Source: a virus. From it: a stretch of DNA of 42,869 bases. Each line of letters starts with the position of its first letter. Position 1 is the first letter of the stretch. The stretch covers positions 1 to 42,869 of IMG/VR virus record IMGVR_UViG_3300037264_008483. One strand, 5' to 3'. A program made the position numbers and the translations under genes. Positions 5,418 to 40,524 of this stretch are shown here, piece by piece. The notes under the pieces were generated by a model, which was given only the letters and a program-made list of their open reading frames with translations, searched no databases and was not told the DNA's origin.

Positions 5418-6020
5418 CTACTCCATCCAGCCAGTGTCTAGACAGACAGACCACGGCCCGTTGCCGTTGCGGCAGATGCAGATGATCCGCACCTGTACGC
5501 TCTCGCCCTCCTTCTTGAAGGCGAAGCACTCATAGGTCGAACCGACGTCCGCGGTCACACCCTCCGGCGAGCCGCGTAGCTCCATGCTGTCGGCGAAGCC
5601 GCTGGCGTGGAACGCCGCGATGCGATTCCCGACAGCGGACACCGTCGCGTTGACCACCAGATCAAGCCCGCCGGCGCCGTCGCCAGAACCGATCAGCAGC
5701 GTGGCTTCGTCGCCGTTGGACACGACCACGAACAGCTCGTTGATCGTGCCGTCTCCGTTCAGCGCCGTGCTGTACCACGGCGTTCGTGCGAGGCGCGGGG
5801 TCTCGCCGTTGACCAGCGCCTCTGCCACCGCGTGATATTGGCGCAGGGCGCTCAGGCCGCTCTTGCTGCTCGCCCTGGCGCCCGCGTAGAGCCGCTCCGC
5901 TTCCGTGGCCACGGCTCGCTCGGGCGCCTTCCTCTCGCCCGCCCACACAATTGCCGGGAGCACCCAAAGGACCACCACCCCGACGATTAGTGGTCCGATT
6001 CTGCCGATCTTGCGCCTCAT
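5418..6020 (-). CDS. putative secreted protein, unknown function
   Basis: A 200-residue protein with a clear signal peptide: basic start MRRKIGR, hydrophobic core PLIVGVVVLWVLPAIVWA, then a likely cleavage after AWA or WAG. The mature part is beta-rich, with a cysteine cluster near the C-terminus (CICRNGNGPWSVC). AGGAG seven bases before the ATG at 6020 supports the start. It follows the tRNA gene in the same transcript. No known family is recognised; export suggests an envelope or superinfection-related role, which is speculation. Confidence 0.65.
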   Translation of the reverse strand: MRRKIGRIGPLIVGVVVLWVLPAIVWAGERKAPERAVATEAERLYAGARASSKSGLSALRQYHAVAEALVNGETPRLARTPWYSTALNGDGTINELFVVVSNGDEATLLIGSGDGAGGLDLVVNATVSAVGNRIAAFHASGFADSMELRGSPEGVTADVGSTYECFAFKKEGESVQVRIICICRNGNGPWSVCLDTGWME

Positions 6021-6058
6021 TTGCGATCTCCTAAAAAAAAGTTAGACGAATCACAAAT

Positions 6059-6133
6059 TGGCGGGGGCTGGACTCGAACCAGCGACCTTCGGATTATGAG
6101 TCCGACGAGCTATCAAAACTGCTCCACCCCGCT
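6059..6133 (-). tRNA. initiator-type tRNA-Met (anticodon CAT)
   Basis: The minus strand folds into a full cloverleaf: seven-base acceptor AGCGGGG with CCCCGCC, D stem GAGC/GCTC, anticodon stem TCGGA/TCCGA with loop CTCATAA, and T arm GCTGG-TTCGAGT-CCAGC. It carries initiator hallmarks: an unpaired 1-72 position (A1 opposite C72) and A11-U24 in the D stem. The anticodon stem has two of the three usual G-C pairs plus A31-U39. The D loop (AGTTTTGATA) lacks the usual GG. No CCA is encoded. The close match to bacterial tRNA-fMet makes the identity convincing; functionality is less certain because of the D-loop changes. Confidence 0.85.
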
Positions 6134-6140
6134 ACCTTTT

Positions 6141-6169: not shown

Positions 6170-6460
6170 TCAGTCCGACTCGGGCACGCCGGCCGAGAGG
6201 TTCAGGTTGCCCGGCGTGCTGTCGGAATACGTGACCTTGATGGTCTCCGTCTCGTACCCCTTAGCCTTGACCGTCACCGTGGCCTCGCCGGCGTCCAGGG
6301 GCGTGGTCGCGTAGCACGTGTGCCCGTCGCCCTGCGGCTCAACACCCACCTGGGCCGGATCGCTGCTTTCCCAGGTGAACGGTCCTATGGCGTCGGCACT
6401 GACGCTCAGAGGCACTTTCTCTGCATCCTTCATTACGACCGGTGGTGCTTCGATTGGCAT
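6170..6460 (-). CDS. Ig-like (BIG2-type) phage protein
   Basis: The product has 96 residues. The sequence resembles a bacterial Ig-like domain: PLSVSADAIGPFTWESSDPAQVGV followed by GEATVTVKAKGYETETIKVTY, the typical strand pattern of BIG2-type modules found on phage and cell-surface proteins. AAGGAGAC five bases before the ATG at 6460 fixes the start. Such domains usually decorate virions or adhere to surfaces. It is encoded well away from the tail operon, so it might instead be a host-facing protein. Confidence 0.65.
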   Translation of the reverse strand: MPIEAPPVVMKDAEKVPLSVSADAIGPFTWESSDPAQVGVEPQGDGHTCYATTPLDAGEATVTVKAKGYETETIKVTYSDSTPGNLNLSAGVPESD

Positions 6461-6496
6461 ACAACGTCTCCTTCCATGAAATCCACTGACGTGTAA

Positions 6497-6512
6497 CCCC
6501 AATATGTTGGGG
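6497..6512. promoter_or_regulatory. inverted repeat upstream of the Ig-like gene
   Basis: CCCCAATATGTTGGGG has 6-bp complementary arms around four bases and sits about 40 bases upstream of the Ig-like gene start. It may be a small hairpin or an operator. The surrounding 6461-6600 is less GC-rich and could hold a promoter, but no convincing -35/-10 pair is seen. Confidence 0.3.
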
Positions 6513-6613
6513 CACTCACGCGCACACTCACAGTCAGAAAACAAAAAATCGAACAATCTTCCGATGCGGGAACGGTGCATCATTTTTTCGGGCACCTCTC
6601 AAAAGGGGGCGGT

Positions 6614-32199: not shown

Positions 32200-32754
32200 T
32201 CACAGCACGCACGTCTGGGCGTCGTACCCCTTCTTTTTCAGCATTTCGAGCACCGTCCGCTGCTGATCGACGTTGATGCACAGGACCTGCACCCCGTAGC
32301 TCCCCACCTTGACCTGAGCAGGGGTCTGGACGATGGCCGCCGCGGCCGCGGCTTGCCGGTTCAGGCGGGCCTCGAGCTCCAGCAGCTCGAATCCAGTGTC
32401 GGTGACCTGGACCTCCTGCCCGGCCCGTAGCTCGAGCAGCAGGTCGGTCAATCGCGACTCGTCCCAGCGCCCCGCCACCTTGTTCAAGGCCACGTTGAGG
32501 GCCTTTTCTTTGGCCGGCGACACGTCCACCACCGAGACGTCGACGCTCTCGGCCCCGAATTCGTTGACCAGCACCGTCAGCCGCTGATGCCCGCCGACCA
32601 GGTTCCCCGTCCGCTTGTTCCACACCAAAGGGTCCACCAGCCCGAACTCCTCGATCGAGCGCTTGAGCTTGGCGTACTCCGGGTCCCCCGGCGCCAGGGC
32701 CGCCCGCGGGTTGTACGCCGCCGGCTTGACCTGGCTCACCGGCACCCGCAGCAT
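32200..32754 (-). CDS. ParB-like nuclease-domain protein A
   Basis: A 184-residue protein with an N-terminal ParB/sulfiredoxin-type domain: VPVSQVKPAAYNPRAAL, then IEEFGLVDPLVWNKRTGNLVGGHQRL, where VGGHQR is the nucleotide-binding motif. The C-terminal part resembles the linker of phage ParB-type proteins often found with DNA methyltransferases. No Shine-Dalgarno is visible; the ATG follows spacer repeats. It may bind or nick DNA, or modify phage DNA metabolism, together with the methyltransferase encoded upstream. Confidence 0.75.
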   Translation of the reverse strand: MLRVPVSQVKPAAYNPRAALAPGDPEYAKLKRSIEEFGLVDPLVWNKRTGNLVGGHQRLTVLVNEFGAESVDVSVVDVSPAKEKALNVALNKVAGRWDESRLTDLLLELRAGQEVQVTDTGFELLELEARLNRQAAAAAAIVQTPAQVKVGSYGVQVLCINVDQQRTVLEMLKKKGYDAQTCVL

Positions 32755-32819
32755 GGTGATAGCGGTGAGTGCGGAGTGGCGAGTGGCGAGTGGGGAGAGA
32801 GTCGGCCCCGCCGATTTCG

Positions 32820-32902
32820 ACTTTCCGTCCTTGACGCGCGGCGAACGCGCAGCGTTCCGGTCGCTTGCGACCGCCGGCGAAGCCGCGCCTCGTGTCAAGG
32901 AT
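32820..32902. repeat. long variant of the TTGAC hairpin element
   Basis: TCCTTGACGCG and CGTGTCAAGGA form outer arms around a long GC-rich core containing GGTCGCTTGCGACC. It lies in the leader of the ParB-like gene and is a third version of the dispersed element. Confidence 0.65.
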
Positions 32903-32939
32903 CGACTTTTGGACTTTTCGCCTCTTTGCAGCAGACTCT

Positions 32940-33034
32940 TCTTGGCCATCCACACATCTCCCTCACCCCTCGCCCCTCGCCCCTCACCCCTCCCCCCTCG
33001 CCCCTCACCACTCCCCCCTCGCCCCTCACCACTC
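32940..33034. repeat. CACCCCTCGCCCCT array
   Basis: About 75 bases of CCCCTCGCCCCTCACC-type tandem repeats, part of the ACTCGCC spacer family, between the ParB-like gene leader and the small cysteine protein gene. Confidence 0.75.
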
Positions 33035-33731: not shown

Positions 33732-34388
33732 TCATCCAGCGATCAGCAGCTTCTCCAGCATTTCCTGCAGTTTCCGCAGCGCCTCCAGCAACGATTCATC
33801 GTTCTGGTCGATGAGTTCGTTCTCGATCAGCAGGATCACTTGGTTCACGTAAAACCGCTGATTCATCCCTCCCAGCCGCTTGTTGGCTTCCATCTGCCCT
33901 TCGCTCAGCTCCTGCCCGCTCTTATGTTTAATAGTTCGTTTCAGCGGCACCTGCAGGTTGCCGTGCTGGGCCTGCCGGTCGATCCGCAGCTCCCCGATAT
34001 ACTTCGGGTCAACGTGCATCGCCGCCGCCAGTTCAACGTCATCCATCCCCAGTTTTTCCGCCAGAAACGCGCATCGCGTCCGGTCCCATCGGCTCAGGTT
34101 TTGTCCGTGACTGCTTTGCAGCCCGACCGCGTCGGCAAACAGCGCTGCTTCGTTCTTGTACTTCCGCTCCTCGACCTCGACCTCCTCGACATTCTGCCGC
34201 TTGAACATCGTGTACCGATTGAAGCCGTCGACGATGCGCTTGCTCTTCGCGCAGATGACGATGGGCGGGAAAACCACCCCGCTCAGAAACGCCCGTTCCA
34301 TGTCCGCGACATGCATCGGGTCGACCTTGTGCCGCGGATATATCTCATAATCCAGCACCAGCTCCGACAGCTTTCTTCTTCTGTTCAT
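33732..34388 (-). CDS. ParB-like nuclease-domain protein B
   Basis: A 218-residue protein with ParB-type features: MHVADMERAFLSGVVFPPIVIC and RIVDGFNRYTMF (the nucleotide-binding FNR variant of the GxxR motif), then a helical DNA-binding-like part (LGMDDVELAAAMHVDPKYIGELRIDR) and a C-terminal coiled-coil (DESLLEALRKLQEMLEKLL). It is distinct from ParB-like protein A. It may coordinate replication or segregation, or regulate genes. Confidence 0.7.
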   Translation of the reverse strand: MNRRRKLSELVLDYEIYPRHKVDPMHVADMERAFLSGVVFPPIVICAKSKRIVDGFNRYTMFKRQNVEEVEVEERKYKNEAALFADAVGLQSSHGQNLSRWDRTRCAFLAEKLGMDDVELAAAMHVDPKYIGELRIDRQAQHGNLQVPLKRTIKHKSGQELSEGQMEANKRLGGMNQRFYVNQVILLIENELIDQNDESLLEALRKLQEMLEKLLIAG

Positions 34389-34405
34389 CACGTTCTCGCC
34401 TTTCT

Positions 34406-34496
34406 CACAAAAAAACAACCCTCGCCTCGCCTCGCCTCGCCCCGCCCGGCCTTGCCGAGCCATGCCCCGCCTCGCCGCGCCATGTTTTTTCTAGGC
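34406..34496. repeat. GGCGAGGC spacer, copy 2
   Basis: Second copy of the spacer with conserved ends (AAAAAAACAACCCTCGCC and CATGTTTTTTCTAGGC) and a different repeat middle. Confidence 0.75.
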
Positions 34497-35322: not shown

Positions 35323-35600
35323 CCCTCGCCGCTTTCCACGCCCGAGGGGCTGAGTTCGGCCAGACCATAGGCCATCACCCGGGCCGGGCCGCCGGATCGG
35401 CCCACGGAATCGACCCGCAGCTTTCCGGCCTGCACCAGCCCGTCCAGGATTCGCCGCAGACTGGCCCAGGGGATGCGCCGATGGTGCTTCGCTTCATAGC
35501 CCTCCTTGATTTCCCGCACCCTCATCAGCGCCCCGCCGTCCAGCACCTCCATCATCTGCCGGCGCAGCAGCGCCCTTCTCTCAAACAGCGCCGTGGTCAT
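35316..35600 (-). CDS. small winged-helix-like DNA-binding protein
   Basis: A 94-residue basic protein with a possible winged helix (LLRRQMMEVLDGGALMRVREI, then IPWASLRRILDGLVQAGKLRVDSVG). It overlaps the end of the Gp37/Gp68-family gene by 20 bases and is translationally coupled to it. Its last residues come from spacer sequence. A regulator of the accessory cluster is plausible. Confidence 0.55.
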   Translation of the reverse strand: MTTALFERRALLRRQMMEVLDGGALMRVREIKEGYEAKHHRRIPWASLRRILDGLVQAGKLRVDSVGRSGGPARVMAYGLAELSPSGVESGEGI

Positions 35601-36678
35601 CGATCGACGCTCCCGCCGGATATTGTCGAACGCGCAGCCCCTCCGGCCAGGTCTCCGGGTCCCCGCCCTTACCGGGCATGGTCACCCGGTACAATGACTT
35701 CGCTTCGTCGTGAATGACGTGCGACCACCCCATCGGGCGCGAAGTCGCCCATCTCTGATCTTCCGGATCACCGGCGTAGCACGGCACGTCGACAACGTGC
35801 CCCATCTGTTTCACAAAGCACGGCACGCCGCCAATTTTGCACTGCTCGACGATCCCGCGGATCCACGCGAGATTGCACGACCTGGCGCCGGGGCCGCTCT
35901 CTCCGCCGACGATGACCCAATGCAATTGGCCGGTTGCAATCGGCCCTGTCAGGTCCATTGCCCCCAGCAGCGGCTCAGCGCTGAGGAAGCGCACCGCCGC
36001 CGGGCATTGCCGCAGGTGCGGAATCCGCTCATCTGCCGACACCTGGTCCTCGACCGACGTCCCCAGCCAGGCGTTGGTCGGCGGCAAGCGGACGCAGCAA
36101 TACGACGAATCGGTCAGCGGGACGTCATAGTCGAACACGGCGTCACCCAAGCGGTCCGTCGCCGTTTGCAAATCCTCGAATTCCTCCAGCGCCGCACGGA
36201 TCAAGGCGCCGCGATCGTCATCATTCAGATATTCAGCCATGCGCTCCGGCCGTTTGGTGAGCACCTGGAAGGTGTGCTGAGGGCACAGGGCCATTACCGC
36301 GAACACCCGATCGATGAACTCAAAGGGCACGCCCTCGTGAAACAGGTCGCTCATCGAGTTGACGAAGATCCGCCGCGGCTTCTTCCAGCCCAGCGGAATG
36401 CCCAGGGCCTCTGGGACGCCGCGAACCTTCCCGTTGAAGTGATAGCCGCCAACCCCGATCCCGCCGGCGATCGCCTCCGGTTTCTGCTGCACGGTCAGCC
36501 CGACGTAATGTTTCCTCCGGCCTTTGCCCTGATGGACCCTGTGGCTCACGGCCATGGCCTCGAGTCTGCGGGTCATGCCCACCGCGTAGCAGTGATCGCA
36601 CCCCGCGGACACGCGAGAACAACCCACCACCGGGTTCCAGGTGCTCTCGGTCCATTCGATGTTGCTGCCCTGACTCAT
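35581..36678 (-). CDS. Gp37/Gp68-family (DUF5131) cysteine-motif protein
   Basis: A 365-residue protein with the hallmark start SNIEWTESTWNPVVGCSRVSAGCDHCYA: cysteines at 20, 27 and 30 form a CxxxxxxCxxC motif, as in radical-SAM-like phage proteins of the Gp37/Gp68 family (PF07505). Other signatures are PRRIFVNSMSDLFHEGVP and VLTKRPERM. The C-terminal part repeats GGESGPGARSC. The family is often carried by phages and islands; the biochemical reaction is unknown. The ATG at 36678 follows GGAGCGTAGCGACGT. Confidence 0.85.
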   Translation of the reverse strand: MSQGSNIEWTESTWNPVVGCSRVSAGCDHCYAVGMTRRLEAMAVSHRVHQGKGRRKHYVGLTVQQKPEAIAGGIGVGGYHFNGKVRGVPEALGIPLGWKKPRRIFVNSMSDLFHEGVPFEFIDRVFAVMALCPQHTFQVLTKRPERMAEYLNDDDRGALIRAALEEFEDLQTATDRLGDAVFDYDVPLTDSSYCCVRLPPTNAWLGTSVEDQVSADERIPHLRQCPAAVRFLSAEPLLGAMDLTGPIATGQLHWVIVGGESGPGARSCNLAWIRGIVEQCKIGGVPCFVKQMGHVVDVPCYAGDPEDQRWATSRPMGWSHVIHDEAKSLYRVTMPGKGGDPETWPEGLRVRQYPAGASIDDHGAV

Positions 36679-39543: not shown

Positions 39544-40524
39544 TCAGTGAGAGCAACCATACAGGGCCAGTTGGTTGTGCGACAATCGTTTGCGGGTCAT
39601 GTCCAGGTACTCCGCTTTCAGCTCGATGCCGATGTACTGCCGCCCGTGCCGGATCGCGACCATGCCCGTGGTGCCGCTTCCGTTGAAACAGTCGAGGACC
39701 ACGCCGCCCTTCGGCGAGCCCGCCAGGATGCACGGCTCGATTTCTGCGCTGCCCGCCGTAGAGGGTTCGATGCCTGGCTTGGTTTGCGGGCCGATGCACG
39801 CACCGCCTGAGACGCCCGCCGCCTTCTCTTTGATCGCCTCGGCGTCGTAGTGATACGTGGCGGACTTCGACAAGAGGAAAACGTAATCGTGGGCCTTAGT
39901 GCAGCGGTCGGTCACGGACTCCGGCATCGGGTTCGGCTTCGACCAGATGATGTCCTGGCGCAGATACCAACCGTCGGCGCGGAGGGCGAAAGCGACAAGC
40001 CACGGAATGCCAACGAGGTCTTTGGGTTTCATCGTCGGGACGTGGCGACTGCCGACGGAATTTGATCCCTTGTTCGTTTCCTGTTTCTGGCCGACCAAGT
40101 CCGTGGTCTTTCTCTGTCCTGGGTGCGCGTTGTAGCTGTCGCCGAGATTCAGCCACAGCGTCCCATCCTCCCGCAGCACGCGGCGCACTTCGCGAAACAC
40201 GCCGACCATCGTGGCGACGTATTCTTCCGGGGTGCGCTCCAGGCCGAGTTGTTTGTCGATGCGGCAAGCGCCGCAATCAAGGCACACGGAAGCATCGACG
40301 CCTGGCCGGACTCCGCTCGCGATGGCCCCTGGGGCTTTGGTGTCTTGCACTTGCCCGCCTACGCGATGTTCACAATTCGCGTCCCCGCCCTCCCACACCC
40401 CCGTCCCGTAATCCCGCAGGCCCCAGTACGGCGGGCTCGTTACACAGCAATGCACGGACTCGTCGGCCAGCCCCGACAGGACCGTCCGTGCGTCACCGTG
40501 GTGCAGCGTCGCGTCCGTCGTCAT
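39544..40524 (-). CDS. beta-class DNA methyltransferase (N6A/N4C)
   Basis: A 326-residue protein. Catalytic motif IV TSPPYW is at 29-34 and the SAM-binding FNGSGTTG lies near 280-287; this IV-before-I order is the beta class, which methylates adenine N6 or cytosine N4. C51, H53, C81 and C84 may bind zinc. The ATG at 40524 overlaps the HerA-like stop as ATGA. It probably protects phage DNA from host restriction. No cognate endonuclease is visible, so it is an orphan enzyme. Confidence 0.85.
   Translation of the reverse strand: MTTDATLHHGDARTVLSGLADESVHCCVTSPPYWGLRDYGTGVWEGGDANCEHRVGGQVQDTKAPGAIASGVRPGVDASVCLDCGACRIDKQLGLERTPEEYVATMVGVFREVRRVLREDGTLWLNLGDSYNAHPGQRKTTDLVGQKQETNKGSNSVGSRHVPTMKPKDLVGIPWLVAFALRADGWYLRQDIIWSKPNPMPESVTDRCTKAHDYVFLLSKSATYHYDAEAIKEKAAGVSGGACIGPQTKPGIEPSTAGSAEIEPCILAGSPKGGVVLDCFNGSGTTGMVAIRHGRQYIGIELKAEYLDMTRKRLSHNQLALYGCSH

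Follow-up and report, generated by a model that had tools for sequence, protein, structure and literature searches.

Why would a bacterial virus carry a tRNA for starting translation, and why would that tRNA be changed at one particular base pair? The question is raised by IMG/VR record IMGVR_UViG_3300037264_008483, a viral contig of 42,869 bases classed as linear, which we analyzed as a whole (the window). ARAGORN finds a single tRNA in it, tRNA-Met(cat) at 6058-6134 on the minus strand. Judging from its sequence, this tRNA is very probably of the initiator type, and the pair that closes its anticodon stem, 31:39, is A-U in place of the G-C of initiators. Altered 31:39 is a recurrent viral variant. 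We tentatively read the window tRNA as a working replacement initiator of the phage, whose change may serve to avoid being cut where stem and loop meet.

An initiator-type tRNA with a changed closing pair

By its Rfam E-value the tRNA is beyond chance, as RF00005 matches 6059-6133 on the minus strand at 60.5 bits (gathering score 29, E 8.4e-11). The sequence is 5' AGCGGGG UG GAGC AGUUUUGAUA GCUC G UCGGA CUCAUAA UCCGA AGGUC GCUGG UUCGAGU CCAGC CCCCGCC A. The minimum free energy fold is the cloverleaf (-29 kcal/mol, z -1.85), with all stems fully paired except 1:72; 2:71 through 7:66 are paired. A reading made earlier from the letters alone (the sequence-only reading) had described a phage-encoded initiator-type tRNA-Met with an unpaired A1 x C72, A11-U24, a CAU anticodon, two of the three anticodon-stem G-C pairs and a D loop lacking GG. 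Our analysis agrees on each point. The contig carries terminase, portal, protease and major head genes, the 1:72 mismatch, A11-U24 and CAU are seen in the cloverleaf, 29:41 and 30:40 are G-C with A-U at 31:39, and the D loop retains G18 with G19 replaced by A.

The window tRNA shares with bacterial tRNAfMet the CAU anticodon within loop CUCAUAA, the absence of a Watson-Crick 1:72 pair, G29-C41, G30-C40 and all of the formylation-aiding pairs G2-C71, C3-G70 and A11-U24. It is identical to E. coli tRNAfMet in 62 of 75 aligned columns. It differs from bacterial tRNAfMet in having A31-U39 (not G31-C39) and A1·C72 (not C1·A72), in the loss of G19 and in the lack of an encoded CCA. Against a profile made from 200 canonical initiators the window tRNA scores 63.4 bits, and against one made from 41 elongator-type CAU tRNAs it scores 39.2; both sets come from the examined loci. 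The E. coli fMet sequence scores 75.1 and 35.8 bits on the same two profiles, and the E. coli elongator Met control 16.7 and 59.8. A better elongator match, which the sequence-only reading had named as counting against its call, was not found. Elongator tRNA-Met and tRNA-Ile2 (CAU), marked by a pyrimidine 11 with a purine 24 and by a paired 1:72, are ruled out by A11-U24, A1·C72 and the 39.2-bit elongator score. PMC7949028 gives three consecutive G-C pairs, 29:41, 30:40 and 31:39, as marks of initiators alongside the formylation pairs. Because the third is absent here, we call the window tRNA an initiator-type variant and not canonical tRNAfMet.

The sequence-only reading had left two descriptions standing, a specialised or a decaying initiator. 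Position 31:39 is changed on both sides to a Watson-Crick pair, and such change recurs in viruses, which favors the specialised form and speaks against the decaying one. As far as the sequence can tell, A31-U39 appears to be a paired replacement and not decay.

Pair 31:39 in viruses and bacteria

Four initiator-pattern scans of viral contigs matched at least 119, 119, 120 and 120 stretches, some of them host flanks or chance. The claim that phage initiator tRNAs are rare therefore has to be given up. As such they are neither rare nor new, and the records of Caulobacter phage CcrSC and Stenotrophomonas phage QDWS359 are already annotated with tRNA-fMet. Initiators of other forms, in viruses and bacteria alike, escape the scan patterns, which require loop CUCAUAA and stem GAGC/GCUC. 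Our viral counts use the first 80 stretches in scan order, minus 5 and 8 non-tRNA-like matches (sets of 76 and 72); the filtered-out matches include one cut-off but real-looking tRNA (L143).

Among the viral initiator-type tRNAs listed, 31:39 is not G-C in 19/76 when 30:40 and 31:39 are left free, and in 17/72 when 29:41 is freed as well. Pair 30:40 departs from G-C in 6/76 and 3/72 (G-C is kept in 69/72), and 29:41 is A-U in 33/72 and U-A in 19/72. In the bacteria counted, 31:39 is not G-C in 2/192 genomes. Fisher tests of the viral sets against this figure give 8e-10 (19/76) and 6e-9 (17/72), values made too small by relatedness, since related sequences are not independent; bacteria were counted per genome and viruses per tRNA.

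The bacterial figure excludes the seed genomes G001, G004 and G007, which had been chosen for A31-U39, and non-tRNA-like matches (one genome and one second match in Bacteroidota, one genome in the Pseudomonadota A29-U41 set). A draw of 150 Pseudomonadota genomes held 90 that match the initiator pattern with 30:40 and 31:39 free, 88 of them listed; seed aside, a copy without G31-C39 occurs in 2/87. The A29-U41 form adds 29 tRNA-like genomes from the same draw, and G31-C39 is present in 29/29. In Bacteroidota, seed aside, all 76 tRNA-like genomes have G29-G30-G31, on which "canonical" rests there, as the listing gives only the 5' half of the stem. The 87, 29 and 76 genomes add up to the 192. In Actinomycetota, again with the seed aside, a pattern in which 31 and 39 had to be altered finds 0/148 genomes. 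Both Pseudomonadota exceptions are C31-G39, one of them alongside a canonical copy. One (G105) lies on a contig with phage-type repressor, anti-repressor and replication genes; around the other (G098), the matches are to a thiolase and to PHROG families, most of which have no known function.

The altered viral tRNAs mostly remain paired. Of 111 distinct ones, 100 still pair at 31:39; because some of the 111 were gathered by a scan selecting for changes at 31 and 39, 111/303 is no frequency. Host flanks are likely to make up some of the viral-contig matches. In one viral scan set, stems without GGG/CCC account for 2/46 matches at no more than 1 kb from a contig end and for 13/52 at 5 kb or more. 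The altered initiator is the sole tRNA found in 10/16 chosen viral records, a fraction biased by the fact that most were picked after a single-tRNA locus had been seen. A 389-kb viral record (G414, the same as L089) has 45 tRNA matches, an initiator-type tRNA with C31-G39 among them.

The exact form, A31-U39 with G29-C41 and G30-C40, has 8 matches in genomes of 84,980 species. Four lie on phage contigs, recognized by terminase, portal or head-tail genes: L135, L137 and L142 (read as L440, L438 and L439) and Nocardia L141 (read as IMG/VR record L144, which has the same tRNA). Two more are L136 and L138/L437; in the latter, 5 proteins compared with PHROGs and 4 compared with Pfam gave no family.

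Among 17 initiator-type tRNAs from phage-collection records, selected by BLAST rank and by hand and not all from cultured phages, 31:39 is altered in five: Kikimora, Gurke, Aeromonas G2, Phabba and PaMx74. The first three have A31-U39. Seven of the 17 are changed at 31:39 or 38, and all 17 keep G30-C40. In Pseudomonas phage PaMx74 (L415), Erwinia phage pEa_SNUABM_44 (L418) and EBPR siphovirus 2 (L422), position 38 is C or U and not A, with U32; this changed position falls at the VapC cut discussed below. The Brevundimonas phages Kikimora and Gurke, like CcrSC and QDWS359, resemble the window in carrying an initiator-type tRNA. Kikimora and Gurke also share A31-U39 and a D loop without GG, whereas their D stem is GCGC (C11-G24) and the initiator margin of Kikimora is smaller (49.6 vs 33.7 bits). 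CcrSC and QDWS359, unlike the window tRNA, keep G31-C39.

A possible escape from cleavage, and its rivals

The E. coli tRNAfMet and elongator tRNAMet have an identical loop, CUCAUAA, and the elongator closes its stem with A31-U39. The same pair closes 21/41 elongator-type CAU tRNAs in the examined loci. VapC toxins cut tRNAfMet at A38|C39, according to PMC4105405. The cut lies at the stem-loop boundary, and a Bosea VapC that cleaves E. coli tRNAfMet leaves elongator tRNAMet uncut (PMC8522696). Since the spared elongator has A31-U39 as its closing pair, a swap to A31-U39 is a plausible way of hiding from such a toxin. Compared with the general bacterial norm, the window tRNA is changed at 31:39, at the reported VapC cut.

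How such a tRNA would work can be laid out in steps. The sequence retains the CAU that methionyl-tRNA synthetase reads, the features that guide the formylase (the unpaired 1:72, G2-C71, C3-G70 and A11-U24) and, for the P site of the 30S subunit, G29-C41 and G30-C40, the pairs touched by 16S G1338 and A1339. Host enzymes would add CCA, methionine and the formyl group, and the tRNA would start translation of phage mRNA. The closing pair would have gone from G31-C39 to A31-U39 because VapC-type toxins that cut initiators act there, so that the initiator held by the phage may survive when the host destroys its own. In the viral set as a whole, 30:40 is kept, 31:39 is released and most altered pairs still pair; these tRNAs thus look selected to fold and be gripped. 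Nuclease escape may be the reason for A31-U39, an explanation that we put forward with reserve.

The closest literature is PMC10264068, which proposes tRNase-insensitive phage tRNAs. Between them, that paper and PMC11555353 propose or show that phage tRNAs take the place of tRNAs that host defense has cut. Like those tRNAs, the window tRNA is encoded by the phage itself, on a contig with head and packaging genes, and its change from the bacterial norm may parallel the differences from host tRNAs near the nuclease site in PMC10264068. Those tRNAs are elongators, whereas the window tRNA is of the initiator type. A search covering titles and abstract openings, with most subscription papers outside it, found no paper describing initiator tRNAs of phages in which 31:39 is altered.

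Neutral drift at 31:39 is the main and a serious rival to nuclease escape. The tRNA may simply be one more initiator, adding to initiation capacity or standing in for host initiator lost from whatever cause, with 31:39 drifting and no nuclease involved, which we consider only slightly less likely than our own reading. In PMC11497404, A1339 and G1338 of 16S rRNA hold 30:40 and 29:41 and not 31:39, as drift would need. Pair 29:41 is also variable in viruses, as counted above. Against drift, cells accept A29-U41 yet nearly always keep G31-C39, so 31:39 is not free in cells. Moreover, the pair changed in phages is exactly the one at the reported cut.

Several observations weigh against our reading of an escaping replacement initiator. 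The altered 31:39 pairs are of many kinds (C-G, U-G, A-U, U-U), as drift also gives. A standard 1:72 pair is present in 35/111 altered viral tRNAs and in 44/192 with G31-C39, so part of the altered class may fall short of strict initiator status. According to PMC10264068, tRNA-fMet is in general avoided by phages where VapC-LT2 acts. The window tRNA has lost G19 and has no CCA, no sigma-70-like promoter was found near it, and the 14 records whose terminase is related contain no initiator tRNA. Among Rhizobium phage CAU tRNAs, some have elongator scores although their acceptor stem resembles that of an initiator. Finally, 2/8 genome matches to the exact A31-U39 form adjoin cellular genes, in the small metagenome-assembled genomes L139 (Nanoarchaeota-labelled) and L140 (Parcubacteria).

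The idea that A31-U39 is exclusively viral was dropped on account of these last two matches. L139 and L140 are possible cases of a cellular initiator that lacks the third G-C pair. In 4/8 genomes, L139 and L140 included, no copy other than the one with A31-U39 matches the pattern. This points weakly to such an initiator being functional in cells, although the assembled genomes may be incomplete.

The Rhizobium phages B1VFA, V1VFA-S and RHph_X66 (L423, L424 and L427; around 601-677) have hybrid CAU tRNAs, which combine an acceptor stem like that of initiators, with C1·A72, and D and anticodon arms like those of elongators, with A31-U39. The B1VFA tRNA scores 70.0 bits as an elongator and 41.6 as an initiator. 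Such hybrids, together with the frequency of A31-U39 among elongators, lend something to the view that the window tRNA is a hybrid Met tRNA moving to or serving elongation, its elongator-like closing pair permitting both roles. We think this improbable, as the window tRNA is clearly initiator by its profile scores, has no 1:72 pair and has A11-U24.

Gene setting and meaning

Likely genes of the window are nearly all on the minus strand and include a tailed-phage set of terminase small and large subunits, lambda-type portal, head maturation protease and major head protein. The tRNA sits about 6 kb inside the contig end, within a run of co-directional genes (Table 1). The gene downstream of it matches no PHROG or Pfam family. 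No relatives of that gene or of the major head protein were found in viral contigs, no near relatives of the first 25 kb of the window in the phage collection, and no match to the exact tRNA sequence in viral contigs. The terminase has 14 relatives, at 37-56% identity, and one of these records carries a tRNA, tRNA-Ala. Apart from the missing promoter already mentioned, promoter and terminator scans around the tRNA gave no useful information. Elsewhere in the window are two ParB-like proteins with about 0.8 kb between them, and a DUF5131 protein fairly close to a DNA methylase gene.

Table 1. Coordinates of the tRNA, its parts and other features of the window
Feature	Position	Strand	Detail or basis
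Probable initiator-type tRNA-Met(CAU), no encoded CCA	6059..6133	minus	position 1 at 6133, A73 at 6059
Anticodon CAU	6096..6098	minus	sequence; ARAGORN; within loop CUCAUAA
A31, pairs with U39, in place of initiator G31	6101..6101	minus	sequence
U39, pairs with A31, in place of C39	6093..6093	minus	sequence; in enteric tRNAfMet VapC cuts A38|C39, with C39 on the 3' side (PMC4105405)
A1 of unpaired 1:72	6133..6133	minus	Rfam alignment and cloverleaf
C72 of unpaired 1:72	6060..6060	minus	Rfam alignment and cloverleaf
D loop AGUUUUGAUA, G18 retained, G19 to A	6111..6120	minus	sequence
Downstream co-directional gene	5418..6020	minus	200 aa; ATG 38 bases beyond tRNA
Upstream co-directional open reading frame	6170..6595	minus	141 aa; Pfam matches weak, under curated cut-offs
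ParB-like protein	32200-32955	minus	
ParB-like protein	33732-34463	minus	
DUF5131 protein	35581-36678	minus	Pfam E 8.9e-82; PHROG (function not known) E 4e-93
DNA methylase gene	39544-40524		

The setting bears on a further possibility, that the tRNA has no tRNA function and is a relic of some kind, such as an attachment site or a decaying remnant derived from a host. The lost G19 and CCA, the missing promoter and the absence of initiator tRNAs from the terminase relatives would all suit a relic. The intact stems and the two-sided change at 31:39 would not, nor would the position of the tRNA in the gene run, well inside the contig. The sequence-only reading had also suggested an integration remnant. 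No integrase family was found in the 30 of about 48 likely proteins compared with PHROGs, no 15-mer of the tRNA has a second copy in the window, and there is no 3' CCA, so an integration site or second copy was rejected. For the reverse-transcription remnant that it offered as well, no evidence was seen, and no search aimed at reverse transcriptase was made. We regard a relic of any kind as very unlikely.

The usual explanations for tRNAs in phages are codon supply and the replacing of elongator tRNAs that have been cut. Because the tRNA is alone in the window, codon supply is not the explanation, and supply by a tRNA array was rejected on the same ground. Neither codon bias nor an array has to be invoked for an initiator. 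With more doubt than for the window itself, we suggest that many bacterial viruses may carry a dedicated initiator, often as their only tRNA, in which 31:39 is swapped to evade toxins that cut or recognize initiators at the stem-loop boundary while the pairs for formylase and 16S rRNA are kept.

If the explanation is true, a solitary initiator with its change at the VapC site would mean that initiation of translation is itself something that phages defend. Host defense and viruses would then contend over the start of translation, and viruses would have an escape class of their own for it. The natural set of initiators with altered 31:39 can also be used to probe why cells keep G31-C39, a pair untouched by 16S rRNA.
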